Assembly: GCA_018829945.1 (NCBI GenBank)
Contig: JAHJTI010000015.1
Location: 1-36,822 of the forward strand
DNA from: Pseudomonadota bacterium
Lineage (GTDB): Bacteria > Desulfobacterota > Desulfobulbia > Desulfobulbales > Desulfurivibrionaceae
Direction of reading: 5' to 3'
DNA length: 36,822 nucleotides
This document shows positions 1 to 27,801 of the stretch, piece after piece. The stretch's first letter is position 1. Each line of letters begins with the position of its first letter. The notes below the pieces were generated by a model, which ran no database searches, was not told the DNA's origin, and saw only the letters and a list, made by a program, of their open reading frames with translations. The translations under genes were made by a program, and so were the position numbers.

Positions 1-17
1 TCTAGCAAGCTGAAAAA

Positions 18-713
18 ATGGCCACGGTCGGGACTCTTGCCGCCGGAGTAGCCCATGAAATAAACAACCCCCTGACAGCTATCAGCGGTTTTGCCGAAGG
101 CTTGCGGCGCCGGCTTGGCCATATCCGCGGCCAGGTGAACAATGAAATCTATGACGATTTCGAAGAATATACAAACACCATAATCAAAGAGTGCCTGCGC
201 TGCCGTGATATTGTCCGAAGCCTCCTCACCTTCAGCCGACCGGTGGCATCCAGCATGCAGCCTGTGGATTTAAACCACTGTATCGAGGACACCCTTTTTA
301 TCCTGAAGCATCATTTTAAAGAACAGCATAAGATCACGGTTACAACCGAGTTGCATGCCGAACTGCCCATGATCAATGGCGATGAGTCGCAACTCAAGCA
401 GGTAATTATCAACCTTTTAACCAACGCCATCGATGCCACGAATAAAGGCGGGACAATCAAGATCACAACCTGCCCCGATGGAAACAAAAATGCCGTGCTT
501 ATTGTCGAAGACTCCGGCTGCGGTATCCCGAAAGATGTGCAGGACAGGCTTTTTGAGCCGTTCTTTACCACAAAGCCCGCCGGAAAGGGTGTGGGCATCG
601 GTCTTTCAACCTGCTATTCGATAGTAAAACACCATAACGGAGAAATAAGTGTGACCAGTAAAGTGGGCAAGGGTTCCTCTTTCTGCGTGCGCATACCAGG
701 TATCATTGAATAA
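18..713 (+). CDS. Sensor histidine kinase, C-terminal DHp + HATPase domains (5' part outside window or truncated)
   Basis: H-box AAGVAHEINNPL, N-box NLLTNAIDA, G1 VEDSGCGIP, FFTTKPAGKGVGIGLS; overlaps/abuts the downstream response regulator. In-frame TAG at 3-5. Confidence 0.85.
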   Translation: MATVGTLAAGVAHEINNPLTAISGFAEGLRRRLGHIRGQVNNEIYDDFEEYTNTIIKECLRCRDIVRSLLTFSRPVASSMQPVDLNHCIEDTLFILKHHFKEQHKITVTTELHAELPMINGDESQLKQVIINLLTNAIDATNKGGTIKITTCPDGNKNAVLIVEDSGCGIPKDVQDRLFEPFFTTKPAGKGVGIGLSTCYSIVKHHNGEISVTSKVGKGSSFCVRIPGIIE

Positions 714-2050
714 TGAAGAACGAAAAATACCCGATACTTGTCATTGACGACGAAGAATCAATCCGAAGGCTGCTGCAAAAGGAGTTGGCCTCTGCCGACC
801 GTGAAATTTTCACCGCCGCCGATGCAGCCCAAGCCATGGATATGGTCCGCCGGCGCTGGTTTGATGTCGTTATTATGGACCTGCTTCTGCCGGACAGCTC
901 CGATCTTGATTTACTCATAAAGGTGAGGGACGCAAGCCCCTCCACGGAAGTAATCATGATTACCGGTCATGGGGACATCGACAGCGCGGTGGAGGCGATG
1001 AAACTCGGCGCCTGTGATTTCATCCCAAAACCCTTCAACCTGGACCGGCTTGACATTGTTGTGGAAAAAGCGCATCAGCGGGCTAGACTTTCCAGAGAAA
1101 ACAAGAGACTGCGGCACCATTCCGGTCTTGATCACGGACCAACCAAGTTCATCGGCAATTCCAAGGCCGTGCAAAACATTCATTATCTTGTTGATAAAGT
1201 GGCGCCGGCAAATATTCCGGTGCTTATCACCGGCGAATCCGGAGTAGGCAAGGACGTGGTGGCCAATGCCATTCATGACCGCTCACCCCGTTCCGGCAAT
1301 CCGATTATCATAAAAAACTGCGCATCCCTGCAAAAGGAACTGGCCCGCAGCGAACTTTTCGGTCATCTGAAAGGCTCTTTCACCGGGGCAATCCAGTCTC
1401 AGGAAGGCTTAATGTCATATGCCCACGAGAGCACCCTGTTCCTTGATGAAATAGGTGAACTTCCCCTCGAGGTACAGGCCTCTTTGCTGCGGGTACTGGA
1501 GACCCAAAAATACCGGCGGGTGGGAGAGAAAGATGAATGTCAGGTCGATATCCGCTTCCTGTTTGCCACCAACCGCAACCTGGCCGAGGAAGTTCAGGCA
1601 GGGCGCTTCAACGAAGCTTTTTTTCATCGGATCAACGCTTTTAACATCCACATTCCTTCCCTGGCAGAAAGAAAGGAAGACCTGCCTTTGCTGGTTGATT
1701 ACTTTCTCACGACCTTGAGTCCTGATGGCGGAACTTACCGAATGGTGCAAGGCGCAATGAACTGCATGCTTCGCTACGACTGGCCGGGCAATGTAAGGGA
1801 GCTCCGGAATGTCATCGAGCGCGCCATTATTCTTTCCGAAAACGGGATTATAACGGAAAAATGTCTGCCCCGCGAACTTGCAGAAGCATCGGAAATTTCT
1901 GAAACAAGCATTGCCCTGGAATCGGTGGAAAAGCAGCACATCCTCAAGATTCTCGATTTTTATGACGGAAACCGGAGCAAGGCCGCGGATGCTCTGGGAG
2001 TCAGCCGTAAAACCTTGTACCGAAAGATGAAAGACTACGAAACGAATTGA
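713..2050 (+). CDS. Sigma-54-dependent response regulator (receiver-AAA+-Fis HTH, NtrC family)
   Basis: Receiver ILVIDDEES/VVIMDLLLP; Walker A GESGVGKD; GSFTGA loop; FLDEIGELP; C-terminal Fis HTH GNRSKAADALGVSRKTLYRKMKDY. Confidence 0.95.
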   Translation: MKNEKYPILVIDDEESIRRLLQKELASADREIFTAADAAQAMDMVRRRWFDVVIMDLLLPDSSDLDLLIKVRDASPSTEVIMITGHGDIDSAVEAMKLGACDFIPKPFNLDRLDIVVEKAHQRARLSRENKRLRHHSGLDHGPTKFIGNSKAVQNIHYLVDKVAPANIPVLITGESGVGKDVVANAIHDRSPRSGNPIIIKNCASLQKELARSELFGHLKGSFTGAIQSQEGLMSYAHESTLFLDEIGELPLEVQASLLRVLETQKYRRVGEKDECQVDIRFLFATNRNLAEEVQAGRFNEAFFHRINAFNIHIPSLAERKEDLPLLVDYFLTTLSPDGGTYRMVQGAMNCMLRYDWPGNVRELRNVIERAIILSENGIITEKCLPRELAEASEISETSIALESVEKQHILKILDFYDGNRSKAADALGVSRKTLYRKMKDYETN

Positions 2051-2117
2051 TCCTGTTGTTTGTGTGGTTGTTGCATGGTAGCAGCCATTGCGCTTCATAC
2101 CCGCCCAAAGGAGACTG

Positions 2118-3005
2118 ATGATGAAAAGATTACTGCTTGCAATATCCGTTGTTCTCTTGTGCTTTTCTTTACCGGGACAGGCCGTTTCGGGAGATAAAAT
2201 CATGAAGATGTCGACCACAACTTCGACGCAGGCCTCAGGTTTGCTCGACGTTCTCCTGCCCGAGTTTGAAAAAGACACGGGTATTATGGTTAAGGTTATC
2301 GCCAAAGGCACCGGGGCTGCCATTCGCGACGGCGTTGACGGCAATGTTGATGTTATTTTCGTGCATGCCAAGGAACCGGAAGAGAAATTTGTACAGGATG
2401 GCTTTGGAACCAAACGGTATTCGGTAATGTATAATGATTTTGTCGTGTTGGGTCCTGTTGCTGATCCGGCCGGAATTAAAAAATGCACAACAGCCGCTGA
2501 TGCCCTGCGCAAAATCGCTGCTGCTTCAGCTTTTTTCGTTTCACGCGGTGACGACTCCGGGACACACACCAAGGAACAGGATTTGTGGAAGGCAACCGGT
2601 CTGCCCCTGGAACAAGGATCACAGAGCATTGTTCCAGGGGCAGACCGGCCGGTGAACTACATGAGGCCATTGGGTGCGTGGTATCTTTCCATTGGCCAGG
2701 GAATGGGCAAAGCGCTGACCTTTGCCGATGAAAAACAGGCCTACCTTCTGGCCGACCGCGGCACATACATAAAGTATAAGTTTGACCGCGAAATCCCGGT
2801 TGCCCTGGATATCCTCTGTGAGGGTGACCCCGCCCTGGCAAATCCGTACGGAATTATTCCGGTTAATCCAGCAAAACACCCCCATGTGAAAAATGATCTG
2901 GCGGAGAAATTTGTCGCCTGGATTACCTCTGCCCGCGGTCAAAAACTCATCGGCGATTACCGGGTGCTTGGCAAGCAGTTGTTTTACCCTGATGCCGGCA
3001 AGTAG
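2118..3005 (+). CDS. tupA: Tungstate ABC transporter substrate-binding protein
   Basis: Signal peptide; TTTSTQASGLLDVLLPEFEKDTGIMVKVIAKGTGAAI, MYNDFVVLGP, SRGDDSGTHTKE, GQGMGKAL, DRGTYI motifs characteristic of TupA; start chosen at 2118 behind GGAG. Confidence 0.9.
   Translation: MMKRLLLAISVVLLCFSLPGQAVSGDKIMKMSTTTSTQASGLLDVLLPEFEKDTGIMVKVIAKGTGAAIRDGVDGNVDVIFVHAKEPEEKFVQDGFGTKRYSVMYNDFVVLGPVADPAGIKKCTTAADALRKIAAASAFFVSRGDDSGTHTKEQDLWKATGLPLEQGSQSIVPGADRPVNYMRPLGAWYLSIGQGMGKALTFADEKQAYLLADRGTYIKYKFDREIPVALDILCEGDPALANPYGIIPVNPAKHPHVKNDLAEKFVAWITSARGQKLIGDYRVLGKQLFYPDAGK
2596..2648. repeat. Perfect 20-bp inverted repeat (13-nt spacer) inside tupA
   Basis: CCGGTCTGCCCCTGGAACAA (2596-2615) / TTGTTCCAGGGGCAGACCGG (2629-2648), spacer GGATCACAGAGCA. 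Confidence 0.95.
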
Positions 3006-3029
3006 AGAGAGCAGGCAAGGATAACTACA

Positions 3030-3725
3030 GTGGATATTCTTTTTGACAGCCTGTTTTCCGCCCTGCTCCTTGTTTTTTCTCTCGACAAGGAAATGCTGGC
3101 CATTGTCATGGTTTCGTTGCAGGTGAGTTTCGCCTCAACCATCCTTGCCGCTCTTGTCGGCATACCGGCAGGATTCCTCGTTGCCCTGGGGAAGTTTCCC
3201 GGCAAGCGGATGCTCATTACGGTGCTGAATACCCTGCTGGCATTGCCCACTGTGGTAATCGGCCTGCTTGTCTATGCCTTTATCTCGCGACGCGGCATCT
3301 TCGGCCCCCTTGATCTGCTGTATACGCAAAAGGCGATGGTCATCGGCCAGATTATCCTGATTATCCCACTGGTGAGCGCCTTAACAATCGCAGCCATCAG
3401 CCGGATAGACACCCGTTACCGCCGCACGGCCATGACTCTGGGCGCCAATCGTTTTCAGACGGCCAGAGTTATTTTCTTTGAAGCCCGCTTCGGCATAACC
3501 GCAGCCATCGTGGCTGCCTTTGGCCGGGTTATCTCCGAAGTGGGCATCTCGATGATGCTGGGCGGCAACGTCAAGGGATTTACCCGGACCATGACAACCG
3601 CCATGGCCCTTGAGTACGACAAAGGCGCCTTCTCTTTTGCCGTGGCCCTGGGTCTTATTTTGATGACCCTGAGTTTTGCCATAAATATTCTTTTCCATTT
3701 TTTTCAGGGCAAGTATCGAACATGA
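3030..3725 (+). CDS. tupB: Tungstate ABC transporter permease
   Basis: Hydrophobic multi-TM protein with EVG-type permease loop (RVISEVGISMMLGGNVKGFTRTMTTAMALE); between tupA and the ATPase; GTG start. Confidence 0.88.
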   Translation: MDILFDSLFSALLLVFSLDKEMLAIVMVSLQVSFASTILAALVGIPAGFLVALGKFPGKRMLITVLNTLLALPTVVIGLLVYAFISRRGIFGPLDLLYTQKAMVIGQIILIIPLVSALTIAAISRIDTRYRRTAMTLGANRFQTARVIFFEARFGITAAIVAAFGRVISEVGISMMLGGNVKGFTRTMTTAMALEYDKGAFSFAVALGLILMTLSFAINILFHFFQGKYRT

Positions 3726-4747
3726 AGATGTATTCGATCCATAATCTGACCAAATCATACAACGGTCGATCCATTTTGGATATTGAGCACCTGGAACTGG
3801 AGGCAGCCCGGATATACGGGCTGCTTGGCCCCAATGGCGCGGGCAAGACGACCCTGCTCAATATCCTCGGCTTCCTGGTTCAGCCGACTTCAGGCCGTCT
3901 TGACTTTCTCGAAAAACCTGTCCGGTTTCAGGAAACGCATTTGCAGCCTTTGCGGAAAGAGGTTGTTGTTTTAGATCAATATCCGGTCCTCTTTACGACC
4001 TCGGTGTATGGAAATCTGGAGTTCGGCTTAAAATTAAGAAAGGTGGACAAGGCGAAAAGGGAGAGGATCATTGACGAGGCGCTTGATCTTGTGGACATGG
4101 CTTCATTCAAGCATGTCCCGGCTCATACCCTGTCCGGCGGAGAAACCCAGCGCATAGCCCTGGCCCGGGCCCTGGCTCTTTCTCCCAAGGTCTTCCTCTG
4201 CGATGAGCCCACTGCCAGTGTTGATGTGGAAAATCAGGCAGCCATCATTGCCGTATTGAAACAGATCAATGATACCAAAAAAATCAGCATCGTCTTTACC
4301 ACCCATGATCGTCTCCTTGCCGCAGGACTGGCCCACCAGACTCTTGTTCTCAACAATGGCCGCCTCGTGTCGACAAGCTATGAAAATATCTTTCCCTGCA
4401 GGATTGAGGCGGTAAACGGCACAGAGGTTCGCTGTCACCTTGCGGAAAACGCTTGGGTTTTTCTTTCCCCTAACACTGCGGTTTCTGCTGTCGGCAAATC
4501 CCGGATATTCATTGACCCGGAAAAGATCACCCTGTATCCCGCTGAAAAAAAACCAGAGAATGTCCATTGTTTAGAGGGCAAAGTTGTTCAACTCATGGAT
4601 GAAGCAAACCGGGTCCGAATCGTGGTGAATATCGGCTTTCTCCTGACTGTTCTTCTCAAACGCGAAGACTATGAATCCCTCCGTCCCGGAATTGGTGATG
4701 CGGTTGCCGTTGCAATAGCCCAAGACGCTGCGATCGTGCCCAATTGA
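3722..4747 (+). CDS. tupC: Tungstate ABC transporter ATP-binding protein with C-terminal TOBE-like extension
   Basis: Walker A GPNGAGKTT, signature LSGGETQRIALARAL, Walker B VFLCDEPTA; overlaps tupB end. Confidence 0.9.
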   Translation: MKMYSIHNLTKSYNGRSILDIEHLELEAARIYGLLGPNGAGKTTLLNILGFLVQPTSGRLDFLEKPVRFQETHLQPLRKEVVVLDQYPVLFTTSVYGNLEFGLKLRKVDKAKRERIIDEALDLVDMASFKHVPAHTLSGGETQRIALARALALSPKVFLCDEPTASVDVENQAAIIAVLKQINDTKKISIVFTTHDRLLAAGLAHQTLVLNNGRLVSTSYENIFPCRIEAVNGTEVRCHLAENAWVFLSPNTAVSAVGKSRIFIDPEKITLYPAEKKPENVHCLEGKVVQLMDEANRVRIVVNIGFLLTVLLKREDYESLRPGIGDAVAVAIAQDAAIVPN

Positions 4748-4814
4748 CCCGTCCTGGCCGGCAGCGATTTCAAAAAAATACAATGTACCGCTCCTGTTCA
4801 TAACGCCGTGAGGC

Positions 4815-4831
4815 GGAGTCATTCTGACCCA
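4815..4831. promoter_or_regulatory. Candidate upstream activator site 1 (imperfect dyad GGAGTCA-N3-TGACCCA)
   Basis: Matches 12/14 arm positions of the perfect dyad at 4948-4964; lies upstream of a sigma-54 promoter. Confidence 0.5.
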
Positions 4832-4947
4832 TTCCTTTTTCCGACTGTTTCCTTTTGTCCATTCCCTGCCAACGCCCATCCCGCAATGAGTTTCCTGTAC
4901 CTCCTTTCAAGAAAAGACAATCCCACCGAGACTCTGCTTGCCGTCAT

Positions 4948-4964
4948 TGGGTCACGCTGACCCA
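4948..4964. promoter_or_regulatory. Candidate upstream activator site 2 (perfect dyad TGGGTCA-CGC-TGACCCA); alternatively a terminator stem for tupABC (followed by TTTCTTTTTTTT)
   Basis: 7-bp perfect dyad, 3-nt centre; centred ~65 bp upstream of the -24 element; T-tract downstream. Confidence 0.55.
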
Positions 4965-5018
4965 TTTCTTTTTTTTACAAATAAGCCCAACATGCTGATT
5001 TATCACGTTTTTCAAGCG

Positions 5019-5034
5019 TGGCACGTCCGTTGCT
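5019..5034 (+). promoter_or_regulatory. Sigma-54 (-24/-12) promoter of the adh operon
   Basis: TGGCACGTCCGTTGCT matches TGGCAC-N5-TTGCW exactly with GG-N10-GC spacing, ~90 bp before adh ATG. Confidence 0.88.
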
Positions 5035-5121
5035 ATATAGAAAACAAAACGGTTTTTGTATCCAAACCTAAAACCAGGGAACGGCAACTCAGCCAATCAT
5101 CTCAAAAAAGGACGGTACATT

Positions 5122-6303
5122 ATGGCTATTCAAGAACAAGTGTATGGATTCTTCATTCCCAGCGTGACCCTTATCGGCATTGGCGCCCACAAAGAAATCC
5201 CCGCCAAGATCAAGGCCCTCGGCGGGAGCAAACCGCTGCTTGTCACCGATAAAGGGATCACCGCTGCAGGTATCACAAAAAAGATTTCGGATCTCCTCAC
5301 CGAAGCCAAGATGAAACACGTTATCTATGACGACACGATTCCTAATCCCACCGACAAAAACGTTCACGACGGGGTAAAAGTTTATAAAGACAACAAATGC
5401 GACAGCCTGATTACCCTGGGTGGCGGCAGCTCTCACGATTGCGGCAAAGGAATCGGGCTGGTAATCGCCAATGGCGGAAAAATCCATGATTACGAAGGCG
5501 TTGACAAGTCCACCAAGCCGATGCCTCCCTATGTAGCGGTGAACACCACGGCAGGAACCGCTTCGGAAATGACCCGGTTCTGCATCATTACAGACACCAG
5601 CCGCAAAGTAAAAATGGCCATCGTTGACTGGCGCGTAACCCCCGGTATCGCCCTTGATGATCCGCTGCTGATGATGGGTATGCCTCCGGCGCTGACCGCA
5701 GCCACGGGCATGGATGCCTTGACCCATGCAGTTGAGGCGTACGTTTCAACCATTGCCACTCCGATGACCGATTCCGCTGCGGAAAAAGCCATTGAGCTTA
5801 TTGCCCGGCACCTGCGTCCCGCAGTAGCCAACGGCGGCGACATCGTTGCCCGCGAAGGCATGTGTTTCGCGCAGTATCTTGCCGGGATGGCCTTCAACAA
5901 TGCAAGCCTCGGTCATGTCCACGCAATGGCCCATCAGCTCGGTGGTTTCTATGACCTGCCCCATGGCGAGTGTAACGCCATCCTGTTGCCCCATGTTTCG
6001 AAATTCAACCTGATCGCCAAAATCGACCGTTTTGTGAAAATTGCCAAGCTTATGGGTGAAAACGTCGAGGGTCTTTCTCCTCGCGATGCAGCCGAGCTTG
6101 CCTTGGTGGCAATCAAGAAACTTTCCACCGACATTGGAATTCCCGCCGGTCTCGTTGCTCTGGGCAAACGCTACGGTAAGGACGTCAAAGAAAAAGATAT
6201 CGAGACCATGACCGCCAATGCCCAGAAGGATGCCTGTGGGCTCACCAACCCCAGATGTCCTAAGGATGCCGATGTTATCGCCATCTACAAGGCGGCAATG
6301 TAA
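5122..6303 (+). CDS. adh: Iron-containing (group III) alcohol dehydrogenase
   Basis: GGGSSHDCGKGIGL, TTAGTASEMTRF, MDALTHAVEAY, HAMAHQLGGFYDLPHGECNA. Start at MAIQEQVYGFF (5122) preferred over the longer ORF, which would cover the promoter leader. Confidence 0.95.
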   Translation: MAIQEQVYGFFIPSVTLIGIGAHKEIPAKIKALGGSKPLLVTDKGITAAGITKKISDLLTEAKMKHVIYDDTIPNPTDKNVHDGVKVYKDNKCDSLITLGGGSSHDCGKGIGLVIANGGKIHDYEGVDKSTKPMPPYVAVNTTAGTASEMTRFCIITDTSRKVKMAIVDWRVTPGIALDDPLLMMGMPPALTAATGMDALTHAVEAYVSTIATPMTDSAAEKAIELIARHLRPAVANGGDIVAREGMCFAQYLAGMAFNNASLGHVHAMAHQLGGFYDLPHGECNAILLPHVSKFNLIAKIDRFVKIAKLMGENVEGLSPRDAAELALVAIKKLSTDIGIPAGLVALGKRYGKDVKEKDIETMTANAQKDACGLTNPRCPKDADVIAIYKAAM

Positions 6304-6324
6304 AAAAGCATCCGCAGACCCTTT

Positions 6325-6354
6325 GGGTGGCAGGTCGGTCTCGGTCTGCCACCC
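6325..6354 (+). terminator. Strong hairpin between adh and hdrC (partial terminator or mRNA-stabilising element)
   Basis: GGGTGGCAG / CTGCCACCC perfect 9-bp stem with 12-nt loop; followed by C/T-rich rather than pure U tract. Confidence 0.5.
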
Positions 6355-6519
6355 TCCCCCTTCCCCTTACTTTCTGGGGCAGTTGGCCAGGTACCACTCC
6401 AGTGTGGCGTTATCTGCTGTGCTTGAAACAGTCTTGTCTTCAAAGAGGACAACCGGACAAAAAACGTTTTTTCACTTTTCTAACGCTGCACCGACAGCAA
6501 AAAGGCGGATCGTAACACA

Positions 6520-7197
6520 ATGAAAGTTATCAATATCAACTTGTCTTACAATTCTGATTTTGTCACCCGGGTTGAAGAGGAAAGCGGCCAAAAGCTCAAC
6601 CACTGCTACCAGTGCGGAAAATGCACGGCAGGCTGTCCCTACACTGATGAATATGATATTTCAGTCAGCCAGATCATGCGCCTTACCCAGACAGGACAAA
6701 AGGATAAAGTTCTGCAATCAAAATCTCTTTGGCTCTGCGCCTCCTGCGAATCATGCACCGCCCGCTGCCCCAACAAAATTGACGTAGCCCGGATCATGGA
6801 TGTGCTCCGTCATATGGCCCGGCGGGAAGGACATGCCGGAGTACGCACGGTCAAAACCTTCTGGGATTCCTTTCTTAATTCCGTAGAAAGCAATGGCAGG
6901 CTCTTTGAAGTAGGCCTGTTGGCGAATTATATCTCCCACACAGGCAGATTCTGGACCGATGCCGGCCTGGGCCACAAAGTTCTCCCCAAAGGAAAAATTC
7001 ATTTCAGGCCCTCTGAGATGCAGGGCAAAAAAGAAGTCACAAAAATCTTCATGCGCTTCAAAGAAGAATCCGCAAAATGCGGGGCAAAAAAGCTGCCACC
7101 GGAAATTTCATCCGTTTCAGAGAGGAAACCGCATAATGAATACATCCCTGAACTACGCTTATTATCCCGGGTGTTCAAGCACCGGAACCTCCCTTGA
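6520..7197 (+). CDS. hdrC: Heterodisulfide reductase subunit C-like (two [4Fe-4S] clusters)
   Basis: CYQCGKCTAGCP and CASCESCTARCP ferredoxin motifs, IMRLTQTGQ, IARIMDVLRHMA context. Confidence 0.92.
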   Translation: MKVININLSYNSDFVTRVEEESGQKLNHCYQCGKCTAGCPYTDEYDISVSQIMRLTQTGQKDKVLQSKSLWLCASCESCTARCPNKIDVARIMDVLRHMARREGHAGVRTVKTFWDSFLNSVESNGRLFEVGLLANYISHTGRFWTDAGLGHKVLPKGKIHFRPSEMQGKKEVTKIFMRFKEESAKCGAKKLPPEISSVSERKPHNEYIPELRLLSRVFKHRNLP

Positions 7198-8041
7198 ATA
7201 CGATATGTCAAGCCGCGCCGTCTGTGGCGCCCTGGACATAACATTAACCGATGTGCCGGACTGGAGCTGTTGCGGCTCCACCCCGGCACACACCGTGGAT
7301 CACACCCTGTCATCGGCGCTTTCAGCCCGAAATCTTGATCAGGTCGCTTCGATGGGTCTGGATTCCTGCATTACCCCATGCCCAAGCTGTCTGGCCAACC
7401 TTAAGACGGCAAAGCACAGGATGGAAGAAGTCGGTTTCAGGGACAAGGTTAACAATCTTCTCGACAAACCGGCCAACACACAGGTTGGAGCAAAGTCTGT
7501 GCTGCAGATACTGGTTGAAGACTACGGCGTTGCAAATATCAAGAAAAAAGTGGTGAAACCGCTGACCGGTCTGGCCGTTGGCGCCTATTACGGTTGCATC
7601 CTCAACCGACCTGCCGAATTGATGCAATTTGATAACCGTGAACACCCCATGGCAATGGACAATATCATGGAGGCGCTTGGCGCCACGGTGGTGCCTTTTC
7701 CTTTAAAGGTCGAATGCTGCGGGGCATCCTTTGGTATTCCGCGAAAAGATCTGGTTATGAGATTGTCCGGCAAACTCCTCGATACGGCTAAAAGCATCGG
7801 CGCAATGGCCCTGGTCACGGCATGTCCGCTTTGCCAGATGAATCTGGACATGCGCCAGACCCAGATAAACAACGCCAATAGTTCGAGCCATAAAATACCG
7901 ATTTTCTACTTCACCCAACTCATGGGTCTGGCCCTGGGCCTGACGGAAAAAGAACTGGGCATGGACAAACTCTGCGTCAGTCCCCGCTCCGTATTGGATG
8001 CCCTGACCAGTGTGGAGAATCCCAAGGAGAAGGCGGCATGA
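7136..8041 (+). CDS. hdrB: Heterodisulfide reductase subunit B-like (two CCG domains)
   Basis: YYPGCSS, SCCGSTPAH, CPSCLANLK, VECCGASFGI, CPLCQMNLD; start MNTSLNYAYYPGCSS at 7136. Confidence 0.93.
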   Translation: MNTSLNYAYYPGCSSTGTSLEYDMSSRAVCGALDITLTDVPDWSCCGSTPAHTVDHTLSSALSARNLDQVASMGLDSCITPCPSCLANLKTAKHRMEEVGFRDKVNNLLDKPANTQVGAKSVLQILVEDYGVANIKKKVVKPLTGLAVGAYYGCILNRPAELMQFDNREHPMAMDNIMEALGATVVPFPLKVECCGASFGIPRKDLVMRLSGKLLDTAKSIGAMALVTACPLCQMNLDMRQTQINNANSSSHKIPIFYFTQLMGLALGLTEKELGMDKLCVSPRSVLDALTSVENPKEKAA

Positions 8042-9996
8042 AAATAGGAGTCTTTGTCTGCCATTGCGGAAGCAATATCGAGGCTACCGTTGATACCGCT
8101 GCGGTGGCTGCCGCAGCCAGGGAATTCCCGGACGTGGTCTTTGCGACGGATACGATGTACACCTGCTCCGAACCTGGACAAGATGAAATAGTTGCTGCCA
8201 TCAAGGAGCATAATCTTGGCGGTGTTGTTGTCGCCTCATGTACGCCGCGGATGCACGAGCAGACCTTTCGCCGCACGGTGGAACGGGCGGGCCTGAACCG
8301 CTATCTCTTTGAAATGGCAAATATCCGGGAGCATGTTTCCTGGATCGGCAAGGACCGCGAGGCCAACACCAACAAATCAATCGACCTCGTTCGCATGGCA
8401 ACGGAAAAGCTGATGCGCAACCGGCCCCTTTTTTCCAAGAAATTTGATGTCAACAAAAGAGTTCTGGTCATCGGTGGCGGTGTTGCCGGGATCCAGGCGG
8501 CTCTTGACTGTGCAGACGGCGGGCTTGAAGTGGTCATGGTGGAAAAAACGGCTACCATCGGCGGCAAGATGGCCAAACTGGACAAAACCTTTCCCACCGT
8601 GGATTGTTCCAGCTGTATCCTCGGGCCGCGCATGGTTGATGTGGCCCAGCATCCCAATATCACCCTCTATGCCTATTCGGAAATTGAGGAAATAAACGGC
8701 TATGTCGGGAACTTTGAGATCACGGTCAAAAAGAAAGCAACCTATGTAAACTGGGATTCCTGCACCGGCTGCGGGATCTGCATGGAAAAATGTCCGAGCA
8801 AAAAAGCCACCGACTCCTTTAACGAAGGGATCGGCAAAACAACGGCCATTAACATCCCCTTTCCCCAGGCAATCCCCAAAAAAGCAAAGATCGACCCCGA
8901 ATTCTGCACAAAATTAACAAAAGATAAATGCGGAGTCTGTGCCAAGGTGTGCCCCTCAGGCTGCATTGATTATGAAATGCAGGACGAATTCGTCACCGAA
9001 AAGGTAGGGGCCATAGTCACGGCCACCGGATACGACCTCTTTGACTGGAGTGTTTACGGAGAATATGGCGGTGGACGATACCCCGACGTCATCACTGCCC
9101 TGCAGTATGAACGGATGCTGTCAGCCTCCGGCCCCACCGGCGGTCATATCAAGCGCCCCTCGGACGGCAAAGAGCCCAAAAACATCGTATTTATCCAATG
9201 CGTCGGCTCCCGCGACAAATCCGTCGGCCGCCCCTATTGCACCGGTTTTTGCTGCATGTACACTGCCAAACAGGCGATCTTGACCAAAGATCACCTGCCG
9301 GGATCCCAAAGCTACGTCTTTTATATGGATATCCGGGCAGTCGGCAAACTGTACGATGAGTTCACCCGCCGAGCCATGGAAGAATACGACACCAAATATA
9401 TCAGGGGCAGGGTCTCCATGATCTACCCCAAGAACGACAAGCTCCTGGTCCGCGGCGCTGACACACTCATGGGAGCACAGGTTGAAGTGGACGCCGACCT
9501 CGTTGTTCTGGCTGTCGGTGCGGAAGCTGCCGTTGGCGCAAGCGAATTGGCTGAAAAACTTCGTATTTCCTATGACTCCTACGGCTTTTATATGGAAGGC
9601 CATCCCAAACTTAAACCTGTTGAGACAAACACGGCCGGCGTCTATCTTGCCGGCGCCTGCCAGGGACCAAAGGATATCCCTTCATCAGTGGCACAGGGCA
9701 GTGCCGCTGCAGCCAAGGTGTTGGGACTGTTTTCCAAGGACCAGTTGGAAAGCGACCCGCAGGTTTCGCTTGTCGATATAAAACGCTGCATAGGATGCGG
9801 AAAATGCATCAAGACCTGTCCTTACGGCGCTATTAATGAAATGGAATTCCGGGGCCTGACCAAGGCAAACGTAATCGAAACAATATGTCAGGGCTGCGGT
9901 ATCTGCACGTCAACCTGCCCCCAGGGAGCTGTTCAACTCCAGCATTTCACTGACAATCAGATACTCTCGGAGGTGAATGCATTATGCCGGTTCTAG
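8038..9996 (+). CDS. hdrA: Heterodisulfide reductase subunit A-like (FAD + multiple [4Fe-4S])
   Basis: MKIGVFVCHCGSNI, VLVIGGGVAGIQAALD, TVDCSSCILGP, CTGCGICMEKCP, CGVCAKVCPSGC, CIGCGKCIKTCP, CQGCGICTSTCP. Confidence 0.95.
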   Translation: MKIGVFVCHCGSNIEATVDTAAVAAAAREFPDVVFATDTMYTCSEPGQDEIVAAIKEHNLGGVVVASCTPRMHEQTFRRTVERAGLNRYLFEMANIREHVSWIGKDREANTNKSIDLVRMATEKLMRNRPLFSKKFDVNKRVLVIGGGVAGIQAALDCADGGLEVVMVEKTATIGGKMAKLDKTFPTVDCSSCILGPRMVDVAQHPNITLYAYSEIEEINGYVGNFEITVKKKATYVNWDSCTGCGICMEKCPSKKATDSFNEGIGKTTAINIPFPQAIPKKAKIDPEFCTKLTKDKCGVCAKVCPSGCIDYEMQDEFVTEKVGAIVTATGYDLFDWSVYGEYGGGRYPDVITALQYERMLSASGPTGGHIKRPSDGKEPKNIVFIQCVGSRDKSVGRPYCTGFCCMYTAKQAILTKDHLPGSQSYVFYMDIRAVGKLYDEFTRRAMEEYDTKYIRGRVSMIYPKNDKLLVRGADTLMGAQVEVDADLVVLAVGAEAAVGASELAEKLRISYDSYGFYMEGHPKLKPVETNTAGVYLAGACQGPKDIPSSVAQGSAAAAKVLGLFSKDQLESDPQVSLVDIKRCIGCGKCIKTCPYGAINEMEFRGLTKANVIETICQGCGICTSTCPQGAVQLQHFTDNQILSEVNALCRF

Positions 9997-10448
9997 AAGG
10001 GAAGGAACTTCGTATCGTCGGTTTTCTTTGTAACTGGTGTTCTTACGGCGGGGCCGACACTGCCGGAGTTGGGCGCTTCAGCCAACCAACGGACCTGCGC
10101 ATTATCAGAGTTCCCTGTTCCGGCAGAATTGACCCCTTGTTCATCGTCAAAGCCTTGATGAACGGGGCGGACGGCGTCCTGGTCTCGGGTTGTCACCCCA
10201 GGGATTGCCATTATTCAGAAGGCAATTTTTATGCCCGGAGAAGGCTGGAAATAATGCAAAGATTCCTGCCTGTTCTCGGCTATGAACCGGAAAGGTTTGC
10301 CTATACCTGGGTTTCCGCCTCGGAAGGCCAACGCTGGCAGGAGGTGGTGAAATCCTTCACCGATCAGATTCACAAGCTTGGTCCAGCGCCTAAAATATTA
10401 GGGCCGCAAGCCTCGGACACCCTCAGCCTTATGGCAGCAGCTCTGTAA
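9984..10448 (+). CDS. flxD: MvhD/FlxD-like [2Fe-2S] electron-transfer subunit
   Basis: IVGFLCNWCSYGGAD, VPCSGRIDPLFIVKAL, GVLVSGCHPRDCHYSEGN. Confidence 0.92.
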   Translation: MPVLEGKELRIVGFLCNWCSYGGADTAGVGRFSQPTDLRIIRVPCSGRIDPLFIVKALMNGADGVLVSGCHPRDCHYSEGNFYARRRLEIMQRFLPVLGYEPERFAYTWVSASEGQRWQEVVKSFTDQIHKLGPAPKILGPQASDTLSLMAAAL

Positions 10449-10485
10449 TAGCACCCTCAGATCTGAGCCGGACAAAGGAGAACAG

Positions 10486-11445
10486 GTGAAATTTCAAGAA
10501 GAGCTCAAAAACAGTATCAGAAAGGTTCTACCGGAACTGGATATGGTAATCGGCTGGGGCAAAAGCTTTGACCCCCTGCATGCCACGCCGCATTTCATCC
10601 GCAGGCAAGAAGATATAGACGAGCTGGTGATAAGCCCCTTAAGCGTTCATAATCTGGCAACGTACCTTCCCGGCCTGCGAGGCAAAAAGGTAGGGATCGT
10701 GGTCAAAGGCTGTGATAGCCGCTCGGTGATTGAACTGCTCCAGGAAAACCTCATCGACAGGAAAAATGTCACCATCTTCGGTTTTCCCTGCACAGGTGTG
10801 GTGGATCAGACAAAAATCAAAAAGGCCATGGGCCATACAGGGAATATCGAATCCTGCGATATGTCTGACACGGCAATTGTCATCAAGTCGAAAGACAAAA
10901 CACGTTCATTGCCGCTTTCAGAAATGCTGGCCGACAAATGCCATTCCTGTCGGTACCCTGATGCGATTATCAGTGATCATTTTGTCGGCGACAGGATAGC
11001 TGACCCTGCTCCGGCTGCGGCCGATTATCAGGCACTTGCGGCCTTTGAAAAACTTTCGGTCTCCGAAAGATTCGGCTACTGGCTCAAGGAGCTTGACCGA
11101 TGCACCCGCTGCTATGCCTGCCGGAACGCCTGTCCCTTATGCGTCTGCCGGGATCATTGTGCGGCTGAAAGCCGTGATCCGCACTGGTTGTCCCAAGAAA
11201 ACAATGTCCGTGACAAATTGATGTTTCAGGTTATTCACGCCTATCATCTGGCCGGACGCTGCACCGAATGCGGCGAATGTCAGCGTGCCTGTCCCGTGGA
11301 CATTCCTGTACTTTTGTTTAAGCAGAAAATGAACAAGGAAATCAGGGACATTTTTCACTATGAGGCGGGAGTCGACCCTGAAGCCACTCCGCCCCTGCTC
11401 TCCTTCAAGATGAAAGAAGAGAATATCACAGAAAAGGTGTGGTAA
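10486..11445 (+). CDS. flxC: Flx iron-sulfur subunit (FlxC-like; F420-hydrogenase beta-like with 4Fe-4S)
   Basis: CTRCYACRNACPLCVCRDHC and CTECGECQRACPVDIP ferredoxin motifs; position in hdr-flx operon. Confidence 0.82.
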   Translation: MKFQEELKNSIRKVLPELDMVIGWGKSFDPLHATPHFIRRQEDIDELVISPLSVHNLATYLPGLRGKKVGIVVKGCDSRSVIELLQENLIDRKNVTIFGFPCTGVVDQTKIKKAMGHTGNIESCDMSDTAIVIKSKDKTRSLPLSEMLADKCHSCRYPDAIISDHFVGDRIADPAPAAADYQALAAFEKLSVSERFGYWLKELDRCTRCYACRNACPLCVCRDHCAAESRDPHWLSQENNVRDKLMFQVIHAYHLAGRCTECGECQRACPVDIPVLLFKQKMNKEIRDIFHYEAGVDPEATPPLLSFKMKEENITEKVW

Positions 11446-12506
11446 TGGATTCTATTAAATATCTAAAATCAACCGATCTGAAGCACTGGCTTGAAGAATT
11501 GGCGCGGGAAAACAGTGTATTCGCCCCACGGGCTGAAGGCGACTCCGTGATTTTCGCCCCCTTTGAGCCAAAACAGGAAATGTCCATAAAACACGCACCA
11601 ACCGTGCCGCCCAAAAAAACGGTGTTCCCCCAGAGTGAAAAGCTTGTTGATTTCACCTACAGCAAAGATCCGGAAAACTTGGGCAGGGTTATGATTGAAG
11701 GCAAGGAAATCCTGCCGGAAGGGACAGCGGTCGTCTTTGGCGGCCGCCCCTGTGACGTCCGCGGCTTCACCATGTTCGACCGGGTCTATCTGGCGGAAAA
11801 AACCGCCGATATCTACTACAAGACCCGCCGTGACAACACCTCGTTTATCACCCTGGCCTGCGAAAAACCGGAAAATACCTGCTTTTGTCATTGGGTGGGC
11901 AGCAGCCCGTCCGACACAACCGGTTCCGATGTCATGGCCACCCCGATTGAAGGCGGTTATGTACTTGAAGCGTTCACCGAAAGAGGCCAAGATCTCCTGA
12001 CCTCTCGCCTTCTTGAGAATGGCGACAGATGGATATTGGAAGCCCAGGAAGTCCATACAATCGCGGCCGGCTCCTTGACCGAGGCCCCGAATCTGTCCCA
12101 GGCCCCGCAGAAACTCCTGGACGTCTTTGACAACATGGATTTCTGGGAAAACGCCGCAGCCAAGTGCCTCAGCTGCGGCGCCTGCACCTATCTCTGTCCC
12201 TCATGCTACTGTTTCAACATCACCGACGAAACAGCAGGCATGCAAGGCACCCGTTTCAGGTCCTGGGACAACTGCATGTCTGCCCAGTTCACCATGGAGG
12301 CAAGCGGCCATAATCCCCGGCCCACCAAGGCCCACAGGCTGAAAAACCGGATAGGCCACAAGTTCAGCTACTATCCGACCATCCATAACCGGATTATCTC
12401 CTGCTGCGGTTGCGGCAGATGCATCAAGAGCTGTCCCGTGAGCCTCGACATTCGTGAAATCGTTCTGGAGGCCATAAATTACGAACCGGCCGCTGGCGAG
12501 GAATAA
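11445..12506 (+). CDS. flxB: Flx iron-sulfur subunit (FlxB-like; AsrA/hydrogenase beta-type 4Fe-4S dicluster protein)
   Basis: CLSCGACTYLCPSCYCFNI and CCGCGRCIKSCPVSLDIREI; CDVRGF motif; operon position. Confidence 0.82.
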   Translation: MDSIKYLKSTDLKHWLEELARENSVFAPRAEGDSVIFAPFEPKQEMSIKHAPTVPPKKTVFPQSEKLVDFTYSKDPENLGRVMIEGKEILPEGTAVVFGGRPCDVRGFTMFDRVYLAEKTADIYYKTRRDNTSFITLACEKPENTCFCHWVGSSPSDTTGSDVMATPIEGGYVLEAFTERGQDLLTSRLLENGDRWILEAQEVHTIAAGSLTEAPNLSQAPQKLLDVFDNMDFWENAAAKCLSCGACTYLCPSCYCFNITDETAGMQGTRFRSWDNCMSAQFTMEASGHNPRPTKAHRLKNRIGHKFSYYPTIHNRIISCCGCGRCIKSCPVSLDIREIVLEAINYEPAAGEE

Positions 12507-12510
12507 ACAA

Positions 12511-13344
12511 ATGAGCGCAAAGAATCACTATCTTCCGGAAATGGCGACAATCAATGAAGTTATCCAGGAAACACATAACATCATGACCTTCCGGGTGATC
12601 TTTAACGACCCGCAGGTCATGGAAAATTTCACCTTCGAACCGGGCCAGGTCGGGCAGCTCTCCTCCTTTGGCACCGGCGAGGCAACCTTTGTCATTAATT
12701 CTCCTCCCACCCGCAAAGACTATTTGCAGTTCAGCGTCATGCGCACCGGTGAGGTCACGAGCAAACTCCATGTCCTCAAAGCAGGCGATCAGATAGGCGT
12801 CCGCGCTCCCCTTGGCAACTCTTTCCCTTATGAAGACATGAAGGGCAAGGACATTGTCTTCATCGGCGGGGGTATCGGCATGGCGCCCCTGCGCCCCCTG
12901 ATGCTGTACATGCTGGACAACAGAAACGATTATGGCAAGATCACCCTGCTCTACGGAGCACGATCTCCGGTTGACATGGCCTTCAATTATGAATTACCAT
13001 CTTGGCTGGAACGTGATGATCTTGAAACACACCTGACCATTGATGCCGAATATGAAGGCTGGCAGCACACCGTGGGCCTTATCCCCAACGTTTTACTCGA
13101 CATTGCACCAAACCCAGAGAATTCAGTGGCCGTTACCTGCGGTCCGCCGATCATGATAAAATTCACCCTGCAGGCCCTTGAAAAACTGGGGTTTAAGGAT
13201 GAGCAGATTGTCACCACCCTGGAAAAAAGAATGAAGTGCGGGGTGGGAATCTGCGGGCGCTGCAATATAGGCTCGAGCTATGTGTGCATGGACGGACCGG
13301 TTTTTACAGCCGCCCAACTCAAGGAACTGCCCAATGAGTTGTAA
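12511..13344 (+). CDS. flxA: FAD/NAD(P)-binding oxidoreductase subunit (FlxA-like, AsrB/hydrogenase gamma type)
   Basis: FNR fold FEPGQVGQLSSFG, FIGGGIGMAPLRPLML, LLYGARSP, C-terminal CGVGICGRCNIGSSYVCMDGPVF [2Fe-2S]. Confidence 0.88.
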   Translation: MSAKNHYLPEMATINEVIQETHNIMTFRVIFNDPQVMENFTFEPGQVGQLSSFGTGEATFVINSPPTRKDYLQFSVMRTGEVTSKLHVLKAGDQIGVRAPLGNSFPYEDMKGKDIVFIGGGIGMAPLRPLMLYMLDNRNDYGKITLLYGARSPVDMAFNYELPSWLERDDLETHLTIDAEYEGWQHTVGLIPNVLLDIAPNPENSVAVTCGPPIMIKFTLQALEKLGFKDEQIVTTLEKRMKCGVGICGRCNIGSSYVCMDGPVFTAAQLKELPNEL

Positions 13345-13492
13345 TGCTCTATTATTGCGGAAATGTGAAGGCGAAACCTTGAAACAAAAACAATAACATA
13401 ATGCCGGACGGTCTTTCCGGTGAGTTGGAGATACTGCTCAATACAAGATTCTTGCGCATCCTCTTTTTTTCAACCCTAAATGGAGCACGATC

Positions 13493-15220
13493 ATGGCTAA
13501 TAAAATTTTCCGGGTCAATATGACAGATCTTTCCACCTCCATCGAAGATGTCCCCGCTGCCTGGGGTGGTCACGGCGGCCGCGGACTCACCTCAACAATC
13601 GTTGCGGCTGAAGTCCCTCCCACCTGTCATCCCCTGGGGGTAAACAACAAGCTTGTTTTTGCCCCGGGCCTGCTTTCCGGTACTCCAGCGGCAAATTCCG
13701 GCCGCCTTTCCTGCGGAGCCAAAAGCCCTTTAACCGGCACCATCAAAGAATCGAATTCCGGCGGCTCATCCGCACAGTTACTGGCAAAATGCGGCTGCAA
13801 AGCGCTCATCATTGAAGGCCAACCCAAAGATGATGCCTGGTACAGTCTGGCAGTCACCCCCGACGGTGTGACCATAAACAGGGAAAAAGAAGTTGTCGGC
13901 AAAGGGAATTTCGAAACAACTAAAATTCTTGGCAAACGTCTCGGCACAAAGCAGGGAATTATCATCATCGGCACTGCCGGTGAAATGAGAATGAGATCCG
14001 CCAATATTTCGGTAAAAGACCCCGATGGCAATCTGCGTTCCGGCGGACGCGGCGGTCTCGGCGCCGTTATGGGATCAAAACGGGTAAAATTCATCAGTAT
14101 TGACCCCAAAGACGGCAAGGTTGAAATTGCCGATATGGAAAAATTCAAGGAGGCAAACAAAAAATTTGCCAAATCCTTGATCGACAACCCCATCAGCCAG
14201 GCCCTTGCCACCTACGGCACCAATGTTCTTGTCAATATTATCAATGAGGCCGGAGGCCTGCCGACCAGAAACTTCACCTCCGGTCAATTTGCAGGACACG
14301 AGCAAATTTCCGGCGAAACAATGCACGATCTTATTCAAGAACGTGGCGGCAAAGTAAAACATAATTGCCACCCGGGATGTGTCATCCAATGTTCCCAAAT
14401 ATATAACGATGTAAACAAGAAATACAAAACTTCCGGTTTTGAATATGAATCGATCTGGGCCCTGGGTGCGGATTGTGCCATTGACAACTTGGACATCATT
14501 GCCGAAGCGGACAGTCTCCTTGATGATATCGGCATCGATTCCATTGAAACCGCCGTTGCCATTGGCGTTGCCATGGAAGCAGGCGTCCTTGAGTTTGGTG
14601 ATGGTAAAGGTTTGCTGCGTATTCTGAAAGAAGATGTTGCCAAGGGAACCGCGCTTGGACGTATAATCGGCGGCGGCGCCGGTGATGTCGGTCGTGCCTT
14701 CGGCGTTACCCGTGTGCCGGTGGTTAAAAATCAGGCGATTCCCGCCTATGATCCACGCGCCATAAAAGGTATCGGCATCACGTACGCCACCTCCACCCAA
14801 GGGGCTGACCACACAATGGGTTATACCATTGCCACCAATGTTCTAGGTGTCGGCGGCTCCCTTGATCCGCTTTCCAAAGAAGGCCAGGTGGAACTTTCCC
14901 GCAACCTGCAGATTGCAACGGCCGCCATCGATTCCACAGGCATGTGTCTCTTTATCGCTTTTGCAGCTCTTGACGATGCAACCTGCCTCCCGGCGCTTAT
15001 CGATCTCATCAATGCCCGCTTCGGCCTCGCATTAACCGGAGACGATGTGACAAATCTTGGCAAATCTATTCTAAAAACAGAGCACGCCTTTAACCTGGCT
15101 GCCGGATTTACCAACCAGGATGACAGGCTGCCTGAATTCTTCAGCATGGAGCCTCTCCCGCCCCATAACGTGGTCTGGGATTTCAGCGGGGAAGAGATCG
15201 ATACCTTCTGGGATTTTTAA
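13493..15220 (+). CDS. aor: Aldehyde:ferredoxin oxidoreductase-type tungstoenzyme
   Basis: AOR N-domain pattern (GGHGGRGLTS, SGRLSCGAKSPLTGTIKESNSGG), GRGGLGAVMGSKRVK, cluster motif CHPGCVIQCS, late Cys in DSTGMCLF. Confidence 0.93.
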   Translation: MANKIFRVNMTDLSTSIEDVPAAWGGHGGRGLTSTIVAAEVPPTCHPLGVNNKLVFAPGLLSGTPAANSGRLSCGAKSPLTGTIKESNSGGSSAQLLAKCGCKALIIEGQPKDDAWYSLAVTPDGVTINREKEVVGKGNFETTKILGKRLGTKQGIIIIGTAGEMRMRSANISVKDPDGNLRSGGRGGLGAVMGSKRVKFISIDPKDGKVEIADMEKFKEANKKFAKSLIDNPISQALATYGTNVLVNIINEAGGLPTRNFTSGQFAGHEQISGETMHDLIQERGGKVKHNCHPGCVIQCSQIYNDVNKKYKTSGFEYESIWALGADCAIDNLDIIAEADSLLDDIGIDSIETAVAIGVAMEAGVLEFGDGKGLLRILKEDVAKGTALGRIIGGGAGDVGRAFGVTRVPVVKNQAIPAYDPRAIKGIGITYATSTQGADHTMGYTIATNVLGVGGSLDPLSKEGQVELSRNLQIATAAIDSTGMCLFIAFAALDDATCLPALIDLINARFGLALTGDDVTNLGKSILKTEHAFNLAAGFTNQDDRLPEFFSMEPLPPHNVVWDFSGEEIDTFWDF

Positions 15221-26616: not shown

Positions 26617-27801
26617 CTAGGAGCTGTATGAGATGACCCTGGTCCGGATCACCCCGGGATGCGCTTCGATCTCTGCCACCAGTTTCTGCGGGATTCCGGA
26701 CTCCAGATCGATGATGTTATAGCCGATGACGCCGTTTGATTCATTGAGATAGCTTGCGATATTGATTTTGCTGGCGCCGATGGCATGGGAAGCAAAGCCG
26801 ATCATGTCCGGGATGTCCCGGTTGATCATGATAAAGCGGGTGTGCACCTTATCGGAGGGAACCGATTCGGCGGTGGGAAAATTGACGCTGTGGGTGATTG
26901 TGCCATACTCCAGGTAGCCGCGCAGCTCCCGAACGGCCATGCAGGCGCAGTGCTCCTCGGACTCCTCGGTGCTGGCTCCCAGATGCGGGGTGGCGATAAT
27001 CTGCGGGTGGGCCAGAGTGGCGGAAGTGGGGAAATCGGTAATATAGGCGGAAAGTCGGCCGCTGGCCAATGCAGCAAGCACCGCCTGTTCATCGACAACG
27101 GGGCCGCGCGCGTAGTTGACCAGAATGGCCCCATTCGGCAGCCGATTGATCAACTCTGAATTCACCAACCCTCTGGTTTTTTCATTGAGCGGCGTGTGCA
27201 CGGTGAAGATATCGCTTTTCCCCACCATTTCTTGCAGGGACCGGGACAGAGAAACCTCAGGGGAAAGGTCATGGATATTCTCCAGAGCCGGGAAGGGATC
27301 AAAGCCGATAACCCGCATCTGCCGCATGATCCCACCGTTGGCAACCCGAATGCCGATTTTCCCCAACCCCAGCACGCCAAGGGTTTTTCCGGCCAGCTCA
27401 AACCCCTTGAACAGCGATTTTTGCTTCTCGATCCGGGAAGCGATTTCCTTGTCGGCAAGACCTGCCAGGCTCTGACTGAAAGCGAGGCTATGATGAATAT
27501 TACGCACCTGGATTCCCAACATGACGAAGACCAGTTCTGCCACCGCATTGGCATTGGCGCCCGGCGTATTGAAAATGCAGACCCCCTGCTCGGTTGCCTT
27601 TGCCACGGTGATGTTGTTGACCCCTGCTCCGGCCCGGGCCACGGCCAGCAAGGAGGGATAGGCTGCGGTGTCCACCTTGGCGCTGCGCACCAGAATGCCT
27701 TGCGGGTCAGATTCTTCCGAGCTTACCTGAAACCGTTCATCAAAAAGAGCCAGTCCTTCCGGAGCGATCTTGTTGAGCACCTTGATCCGATAACCAGTCA
27801 T
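26617..27801 (-). CDS. serA: D-3-phosphoglycerate dehydrogenase (short form with C-terminal ACT-like domain)
   Basis: VLGLGKIGIRVANGG, VHTPLNEKTRGLVN, LVNYARGPVVDEQAV, TPHLGASTEESEEH; C-terminal IIDLESGIPQKLVAEIEAHPGVIRTRVI. Confidence 0.92.
   Translation of the reverse strand: MTGYRIKVLNKIAPEGLALFDERFQVSSEESDPQGILVRSAKVDTAAYPSLLAVARAGAGVNNITVAKATEQGVCIFNTPGANANAVAELVFVMLGIQVRNIHHSLAFSQSLAGLADKEIASRIEKQKSLFKGFELAGKTLGVLGLGKIGIRVANGGIMRQMRVIGFDPFPALENIHDLSPEVSLSRSLQEMVGKSDIFTVHTPLNEKTRGLVNSELINRLPNGAILVNYARGPVVDEQAVLAALASGRLSAYITDFPTSATLAHPQIIATPHLGASTEESEEHCACMAVRELRGYLEYGTITHSVNFPTAESVPSDKVHTRFIMINRDIPDMIGFASHAIGASKINIASYLNESNGVIGYNIIDLESGIPQKLVAEIEAHPGVIRTRVISYSS

Follow-up and report, generated by a model that had tools for sequence, protein, structure and literature searches.

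NtrC-type enhancers, such as those of the glnA and nifH promoters, consist of tandem dyads ∼80 to 230 bp upstream of the −24/−12 element. The described system closest to the one analyzed here is that of DVU2394 and its kinase DVU2395 in D. vulgaris Hildenborough. DVU2394 is reported to regulate DVU2405-2397 (adh, hdr), on the basis of its DAP-chip targets and of a binding motif that was validated; this motif was a direct repeat and occurred in no strains other than D. vulgaris Hildenborough and Miyazaki (PMC3333781). DVU2394 is also listed among sigma-54-dependent regulators with GSFTGA (PMC4641369). Of the alcohol dehydrogenases in the D. vulgaris proteome, Adh1 was the most abundant (PMC10920352), and DVU2394-2396 have been mutated repeatedly in laboratory evolution (PMC7439460, PMC8319347). 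In Solidesulfovibrio fructosivorans, adh regulation is still called unresolved (PMC10084766). A second related system is ErcA-ErcS / YiaY-YiaZ of Pseudomonas, in which an iron-containing alcohol dehydrogenase (iron-ADH) homologue is cotranscribed with a histidine kinase and takes part in the control of alcohol oxidation (PMC12997753, there citing Hempel et al. 2013).

The window (the whole 36,822-nucleotide stretch of DNA analyzed here) carries a locus of the DVU2394 type (Table 1). Like DVU2394, its regulator is an NtrC-type two-component protein with GSFTGA, a predicted adh-hdr-flx target, and a predicted partnership with sigma-54. In contrast to the published direct repeat, the operator here is a palindrome array, TGGGTCA-N3-TGACCCA, common to two classes of sulfate reducers, and, unlike in the DVU2394 system, tup genes sit between regulator and adh. 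Compared to NtrC-type enhancers in general, the window array has its own operator sequence and a three-site geometry. A second iron-ADH homologue (ADH2) and the kinase form a pair resembling ErcA-ErcS: the best of all models for ADH2 was NCBIfam ErcA (NF041833), although its score of 404.9 bits is below the cut-off of 550, and the kinase differs in being a plain PAS kinase that has an NtrC-type regulator of its own. We estimate at roughly 0.85 the probability that positions 4815 to 5034 form the enhancer and promoter of adh-hdr-flx, bound by the regulator encoded at 713 to 2050 together with sigma-54, and that the array is also autoregulatory. While the type of control is already known, what is new here is the shared operator and its geometry, together with the autoregulatory copy and the apparent horizontal acquisition; a search covering the open literature found no earlier report of the operator or layout. 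Adh-Hdr-Flx has a central role in the ethanol metabolism of sulfate reducers and in their electron bifurcation. With an operator that is shared and fixed in geometry, its control can be tested directly in cultured strains, and the regulon can be called in metagenomes.

Table 1. Features of the window at and around the adh promoter, with the basis of each assignment
Feature	Positions	Strand	Basis
Sensor histidine kinase, 3′ part (contig begins within gene)	1–713	+	Pfam HisKA and HATPase_c
NtrC-family response regulator	713–2050	+	Pfam Response_reg, Sigma54_activat, HTH_8; syntenic counterpart of DVU2394
Tungstate-binding TupA-like protein	2121–3005	+	NCBIfam TupA, 230 bits (below cut-off of 400); Pfam PBP_like_2
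TupB-like ABC permease	3030–3725	+	Pfam BPD_transp_1
TupC-like ABC ATPase	3722–4747	+	Pfam ABC_tran
Operator site A, GGAGTCATTCTGACCCA	4815–4831	+	PWM 16.5 bits; 204 bp upstream of −24 start; position conserved in relatives
Operator site B, TGTTTCCTTTTGTCCAT	4846–4862	+	Weak, PWM 7.1 bits; 31 bp after site A
Operator site C, TGGGTCACGCTGACCCA	4948–4964	+	Perfect dyad; 71 bp upstream of −24 start
Sigma-54 −24/−12 promoter, TGGCACGTCCGTTGCT	5019–5034	+	Perfect consensus match; start predicted near 5045
adh, iron-containing alcohol dehydrogenase	5122–6303	+	Pfam Fe-ADH and ADH_Fe_C
HdrC-like protein	6520–7197	+	4Fe-4S domains; gene order
HdrB-like protein	7136–8041	+	Pfam CCG, two copies
HdrA-like flavoprotein	8038–9996	+	FAD and 4Fe-4S domains
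MvhD/FlpD-like subunit	9984–10448	+	Pfam FlpD
Three Flx-like genes (iron-sulfur, sulfhydrogenase-beta-like, FAD/NAD-binding)	10486–13344	+	NCBIfam below cut-offs; Hdr-Flx synteny
Aldehyde:ferredoxin-oxidoreductase (AOR)-family protein, tungsten enzyme candidate	13493–15220	+	Partial NCBIfam AOR match below cut-off

An initial annotation, made from the letters of the sequence, had placed a consensus −24/−12 element with correct spacing ahead of adh. Position and sequence both agreed with this claim: TGGCACGTCCGTTGCT fits the sigma-54 pattern TGGCAC-N5-TTGCW, shows zero mismatches to TGGCAC-N5-TTGCT, and keeps the GG-N10-GC spacing. Since 0.79 matches to TGGCAC-N5-TTGCT with up to one mismatch are expected in the window by chance (2 were observed), a single match is weakly surprising by itself. 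Across the source genome, TGGCAY-N5-TTGCW matched 17 times, compared with 3 times for its reversed control, and contig C111 encodes RpoN (PF04552 match; 206 bits). No sigma-70-like site was found in positions 4700 to 6560.

Upstream of this promoter, the annotation had described two dyads (sites C and A here). Both are real and exceed chance expectation: within the window, TGGGTCA-N3-TGACCCA with up to two mismatches matched just these two sites (0.10 expected), two sites were reached in 0 of 100 shuffles, and site C is the sole perfect copy of the palindrome in the whole 2.83-Mb genome. The description had, however, overlooked the weaker site B, which lies ∼173 bp upstream of −24 and is recognized by the 31- to 32-bp pair spacing and its own conservation block in relatives. 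The two copies had also been said to share ∼20/24 positions; the actual count is 20/23, and the ATTyCTTTTT tail, common to both window copies, is not conserved in relatives.

Operator and promoter were compared across relatives at two scales. adh was sought in 146 genomes of the window's order and was present in 28, source genome included; the best Adh matches in the 27 others were mostly 84 to 94% identical. Upstream regions were compared at 79 named adh loci from sulfate reducers of Desulfobulbia and Desulfovibrionia (Adh 76 to 94% identical), most of which had the −24/−12 element ∼100 bp 5′ of the adh ATG and one to three operator copies. The operator consensus in relatives was a 17-bp palindrome, TGGGTCA-www-TGACCCA. 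Its pattern YGGGTCANNNTGACCCR (up to two mismatches) occurred in 53 of 78 adh upstream regions, compared to 4 of 78 for the best of 120 shuffled palindromes, and in a de novo count of all inverted repeats in these regions the operator's two halves ranked first and second. Sites found by PWM scanning clustered 68 to 72, 170 to 175, and 201 to 206 bp upstream of −24, the ∼70-bp position being occupied in a subset of loci, and 31 to 32 bp separated 51 site pairs; three helical turns separate the distal pair in relatives. When loci were aligned on site A, site B emerged as a separate conserved block with little conservation between the sites. These loci therefore show the geometry of an NtrC-type enhancer, at least two operator dyads at conserved, phased distances. 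The operator proposed by the annotation holds as a conserved palindrome at fixed distances, but it is looser than a perfect dyad. Promoter and operator occurred together at 67 of the 79 loci, with neither at 7 and just one at 5, contrary to the possibility, raised in the annotation itself, that the dyads are unrelated to −24/−12 elements in relatives. Two second adh copies (L108 and L115) had no −24/−12 element and no operators. At L038 and L181 (G066:C1, ∼1061800 to 1066159), a regulator and operator array were present, and the adh match spanned residues 179 to 393 alone.

The response regulator joins a receiver to an AAA+ domain that carries GSFTGA and to a Fis-type HTH, placing it in the NtrC family. 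Its recognition helix (LG[IV][SGC]RKTLYRK) is near-invariant among orthologs; because this helix is of the common Fis type, the sequence does not by itself tie the regulator to the operator. In Nitratidesulfovibrio, a diverged DNA-binding domain was considered and rejected: the alignment ends at residue 391 where the linker has a glycine-rich insertion, and the recognition helix is unchanged. The annotation's assignment of this protein as the activator is backed by gene neighborhood, by co-occurrence with adh, and by the published target of its counterpart. In both classes, many named loci have the kinase and regulator immediately 5′ of adh, and ADH2 precedes them in an ADH2-kinase-regulator arrangement conserved beside adh in two classes. 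Of the order's 146 genomes, 26 contained a close homolog of the regulator, all 26 belonging to the 28 adh-positive genomes and none to the 118 adh-negative ones (Fisher P ∼ 9 × 10−27, uncorrected for ancestry). The strict operator occurred in 13 of 26 regulator-positive versus 9 of 120 regulator-negative genomes (P = 1.7 × 10−6, likewise uncorrected); since the genomes are not phylogenetically independent, these P values are indicative. The neighboring regulator gene very probably works the switch, its product being predicted to bind the sites.

Alternatively, the array may be a real enhancer bound by another sigma-54 activator, with the adjacent two-component system controlling something else. 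Many NtrC-type activators are indeed encoded (9 and 4 homologs with E < 1e-85 in the two genomes examined), and one nearly complete genome (G055) retains adh, the −24/−12 element, and weaker sites, with ADH2 and an adjacent regulator not recognizable; this genome keeps the alternative alive. We do not claim that its operators are decayed, the sites being weaker yet present. Nevertheless, we consider another activator improbable, given the synteny and co-occurrence described above, the presence of the array before the ADH2-kinase-regulator operon as well, and the adh-hdr operon as the published target of DVU2394 (PMC3333781). The annotation had further proposed a regulon. Sigma-54-dependent, two-component control of the adh operon is supported, but its recognizable members are limited to the adh operon plus, in part of the lineages, the operon of the regulator itself. 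In the search for a wider regulon, strict matches outside an array or away from a −24/−12 element (L178-180, L182, L183, L185, L190, L192, and L195-L198) look like chance.

The dyads could also be read as intrinsic terminators of the tup operon, each a hairpin followed by a T run, such that the −24/−12 element alone would matter for adh. A terminator scan accepts site C together with the TTTCTTTTTT that follows it (stem of 7 bp, loop of 3 nt), and site A too has a T-rich tail. Over 155 sites in relatives, however, no downstream T enrichment was detected (0.29 versus a background of 0.27), 16 sites had at least five T within 8 nt, perfect inverted repeats were found at just 6, and arm positions covaried hardly beyond shuffles. 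In addition, the sites stay at fixed distances from −24 at adh loci that are not preceded by tup genes. The missing T run, scant covariation, and few perfect repeats indicate that the conserved entity is a sequence and not a hairpin, as expected for a protein-binding site; the terminator reading was rejected on the 155-site test, and we regard it as very improbable. Finally, chance or general repeats unrelated to regulation are scarcely credible, since loose (3-mismatch) matches are many in the source genome (105 versus 96 for the reversed control) but strict matches are rare, position locked, and conserved, and the comparative data contradict this explanation.

The operator array apparently also precedes the regulator's own operon. 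On contig C190 of the source genome (L067; G000:C190, 7448 to 9261), the gene for ADH2, an ErcA-like iron-ADH that keeps its metal-binding residues, overlaps the beginning of the gene for a PAS histidine kinase; this 5′ part of the kinase bears the PAS domain (PAS_4). ADH2 is preceded by three sites (at 7169, 7201, and 7302) and by a −24/−12-like element at 7372 to 7387 (two mismatches), with spacings of 32, 101, and 70 bp versus 31, 102, and 71 bp at adh. A three-site array with a −24/−12 element was also present 5′ of ADH2-kinase-regulator in several relatives, although not in all. The array thus appears to lie ahead of the regulator operon in several genomes, apparently including the source genome, and this position implies positive autoregulation. 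Window positions 1 to 173 overlap positions 9091 to 9261 of L067 inside the kinase gene with 93% identity, which exceeds the 82 to 84% identity of either sequence to the nearest relative; contigs C190 and C158 thus probably represent a single locus in two strain variants. The two contig ends suggest, but do not prove, strain variants with an assembly break.

In the mechanism that we propose, the PAS histidine kinase would phosphorylate the response regulator, which would then bind sites A to C and oligomerize. DNA looping would let the regulator drive sigma-54 polymerase, with transcription beginning near 5045 and the alcohol dehydrogenase and Hdr-Flx electron-bifurcating complex being switched on; through the array before the ADH2-kinase-regulator operon, the circuit would be positively autoregulated as well. 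The signal is likely an alcohol, aldehyde, or redox cue, and, more speculatively, ADH2 may contribute to its sensing. It is conceivable, if doubtful, that ADH2-kinase-regulator constitutes an enzyme-coupled alcohol sensor in which ADH2 would signal alcohol or aldehyde turnover to the PAS kinase and the upstream array would provide a positive feedback switch. Equally tentative is the corollary that such a switch would occur in some of the sulfate reducers carrying the ADH2-kinase-regulator operon.

The nearest relatives of D. vulgaris that we compared, Nitratidesulfovibrio, have a syntenic ADH2-kinase-regulator next to the adh cluster. The window regulator is 57 to 59% identical to the single match in each Nitratidesulfovibrio-type genome, and in one of these (G146) the match lies beside ADH2. 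Nitratidesulfovibrio also carries two degenerate palindromic operator copies ∼31 bp apart, which might explain the published direct-repeat reading; we infer that the DVU2394 motif and the present operator may be the same site.

No further member of the window's own family among the genomes sampled has adh or the regulator, and the window Adh is 94% identical to that of Desulfocapsa. A contaminating contig was ruled out, since the gene at 26620 to 27801 on the same contig is 95% identical to that of a same-genus genome, indicating that the contig belongs to the genus. Because the family is otherwise without adh and regulator, yet a gene on the contig matches the genus, the cluster (713 to 15220) was probably acquired from a Desulfocapsa-like donor by horizontal transfer, or else lost in sister genomes. 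Here and in a few relatives, the regulator is separated from adh by the tup genes (2121 to 4747); in most loci, the regulator abuts adh. A strong operator-like match, CGGGTCAATATGACAGA (17.1 bits), is located at 13511 to 13527, just inside the AOR-family gene, with no −24/−12 element nearby. An AOR-family gene lies near adh in many relatives, and molybdopterin genes are also present on the window contig along with the AOR-family gene. The placement of the tungstate transporter fits with a downstream tungsten AOR.
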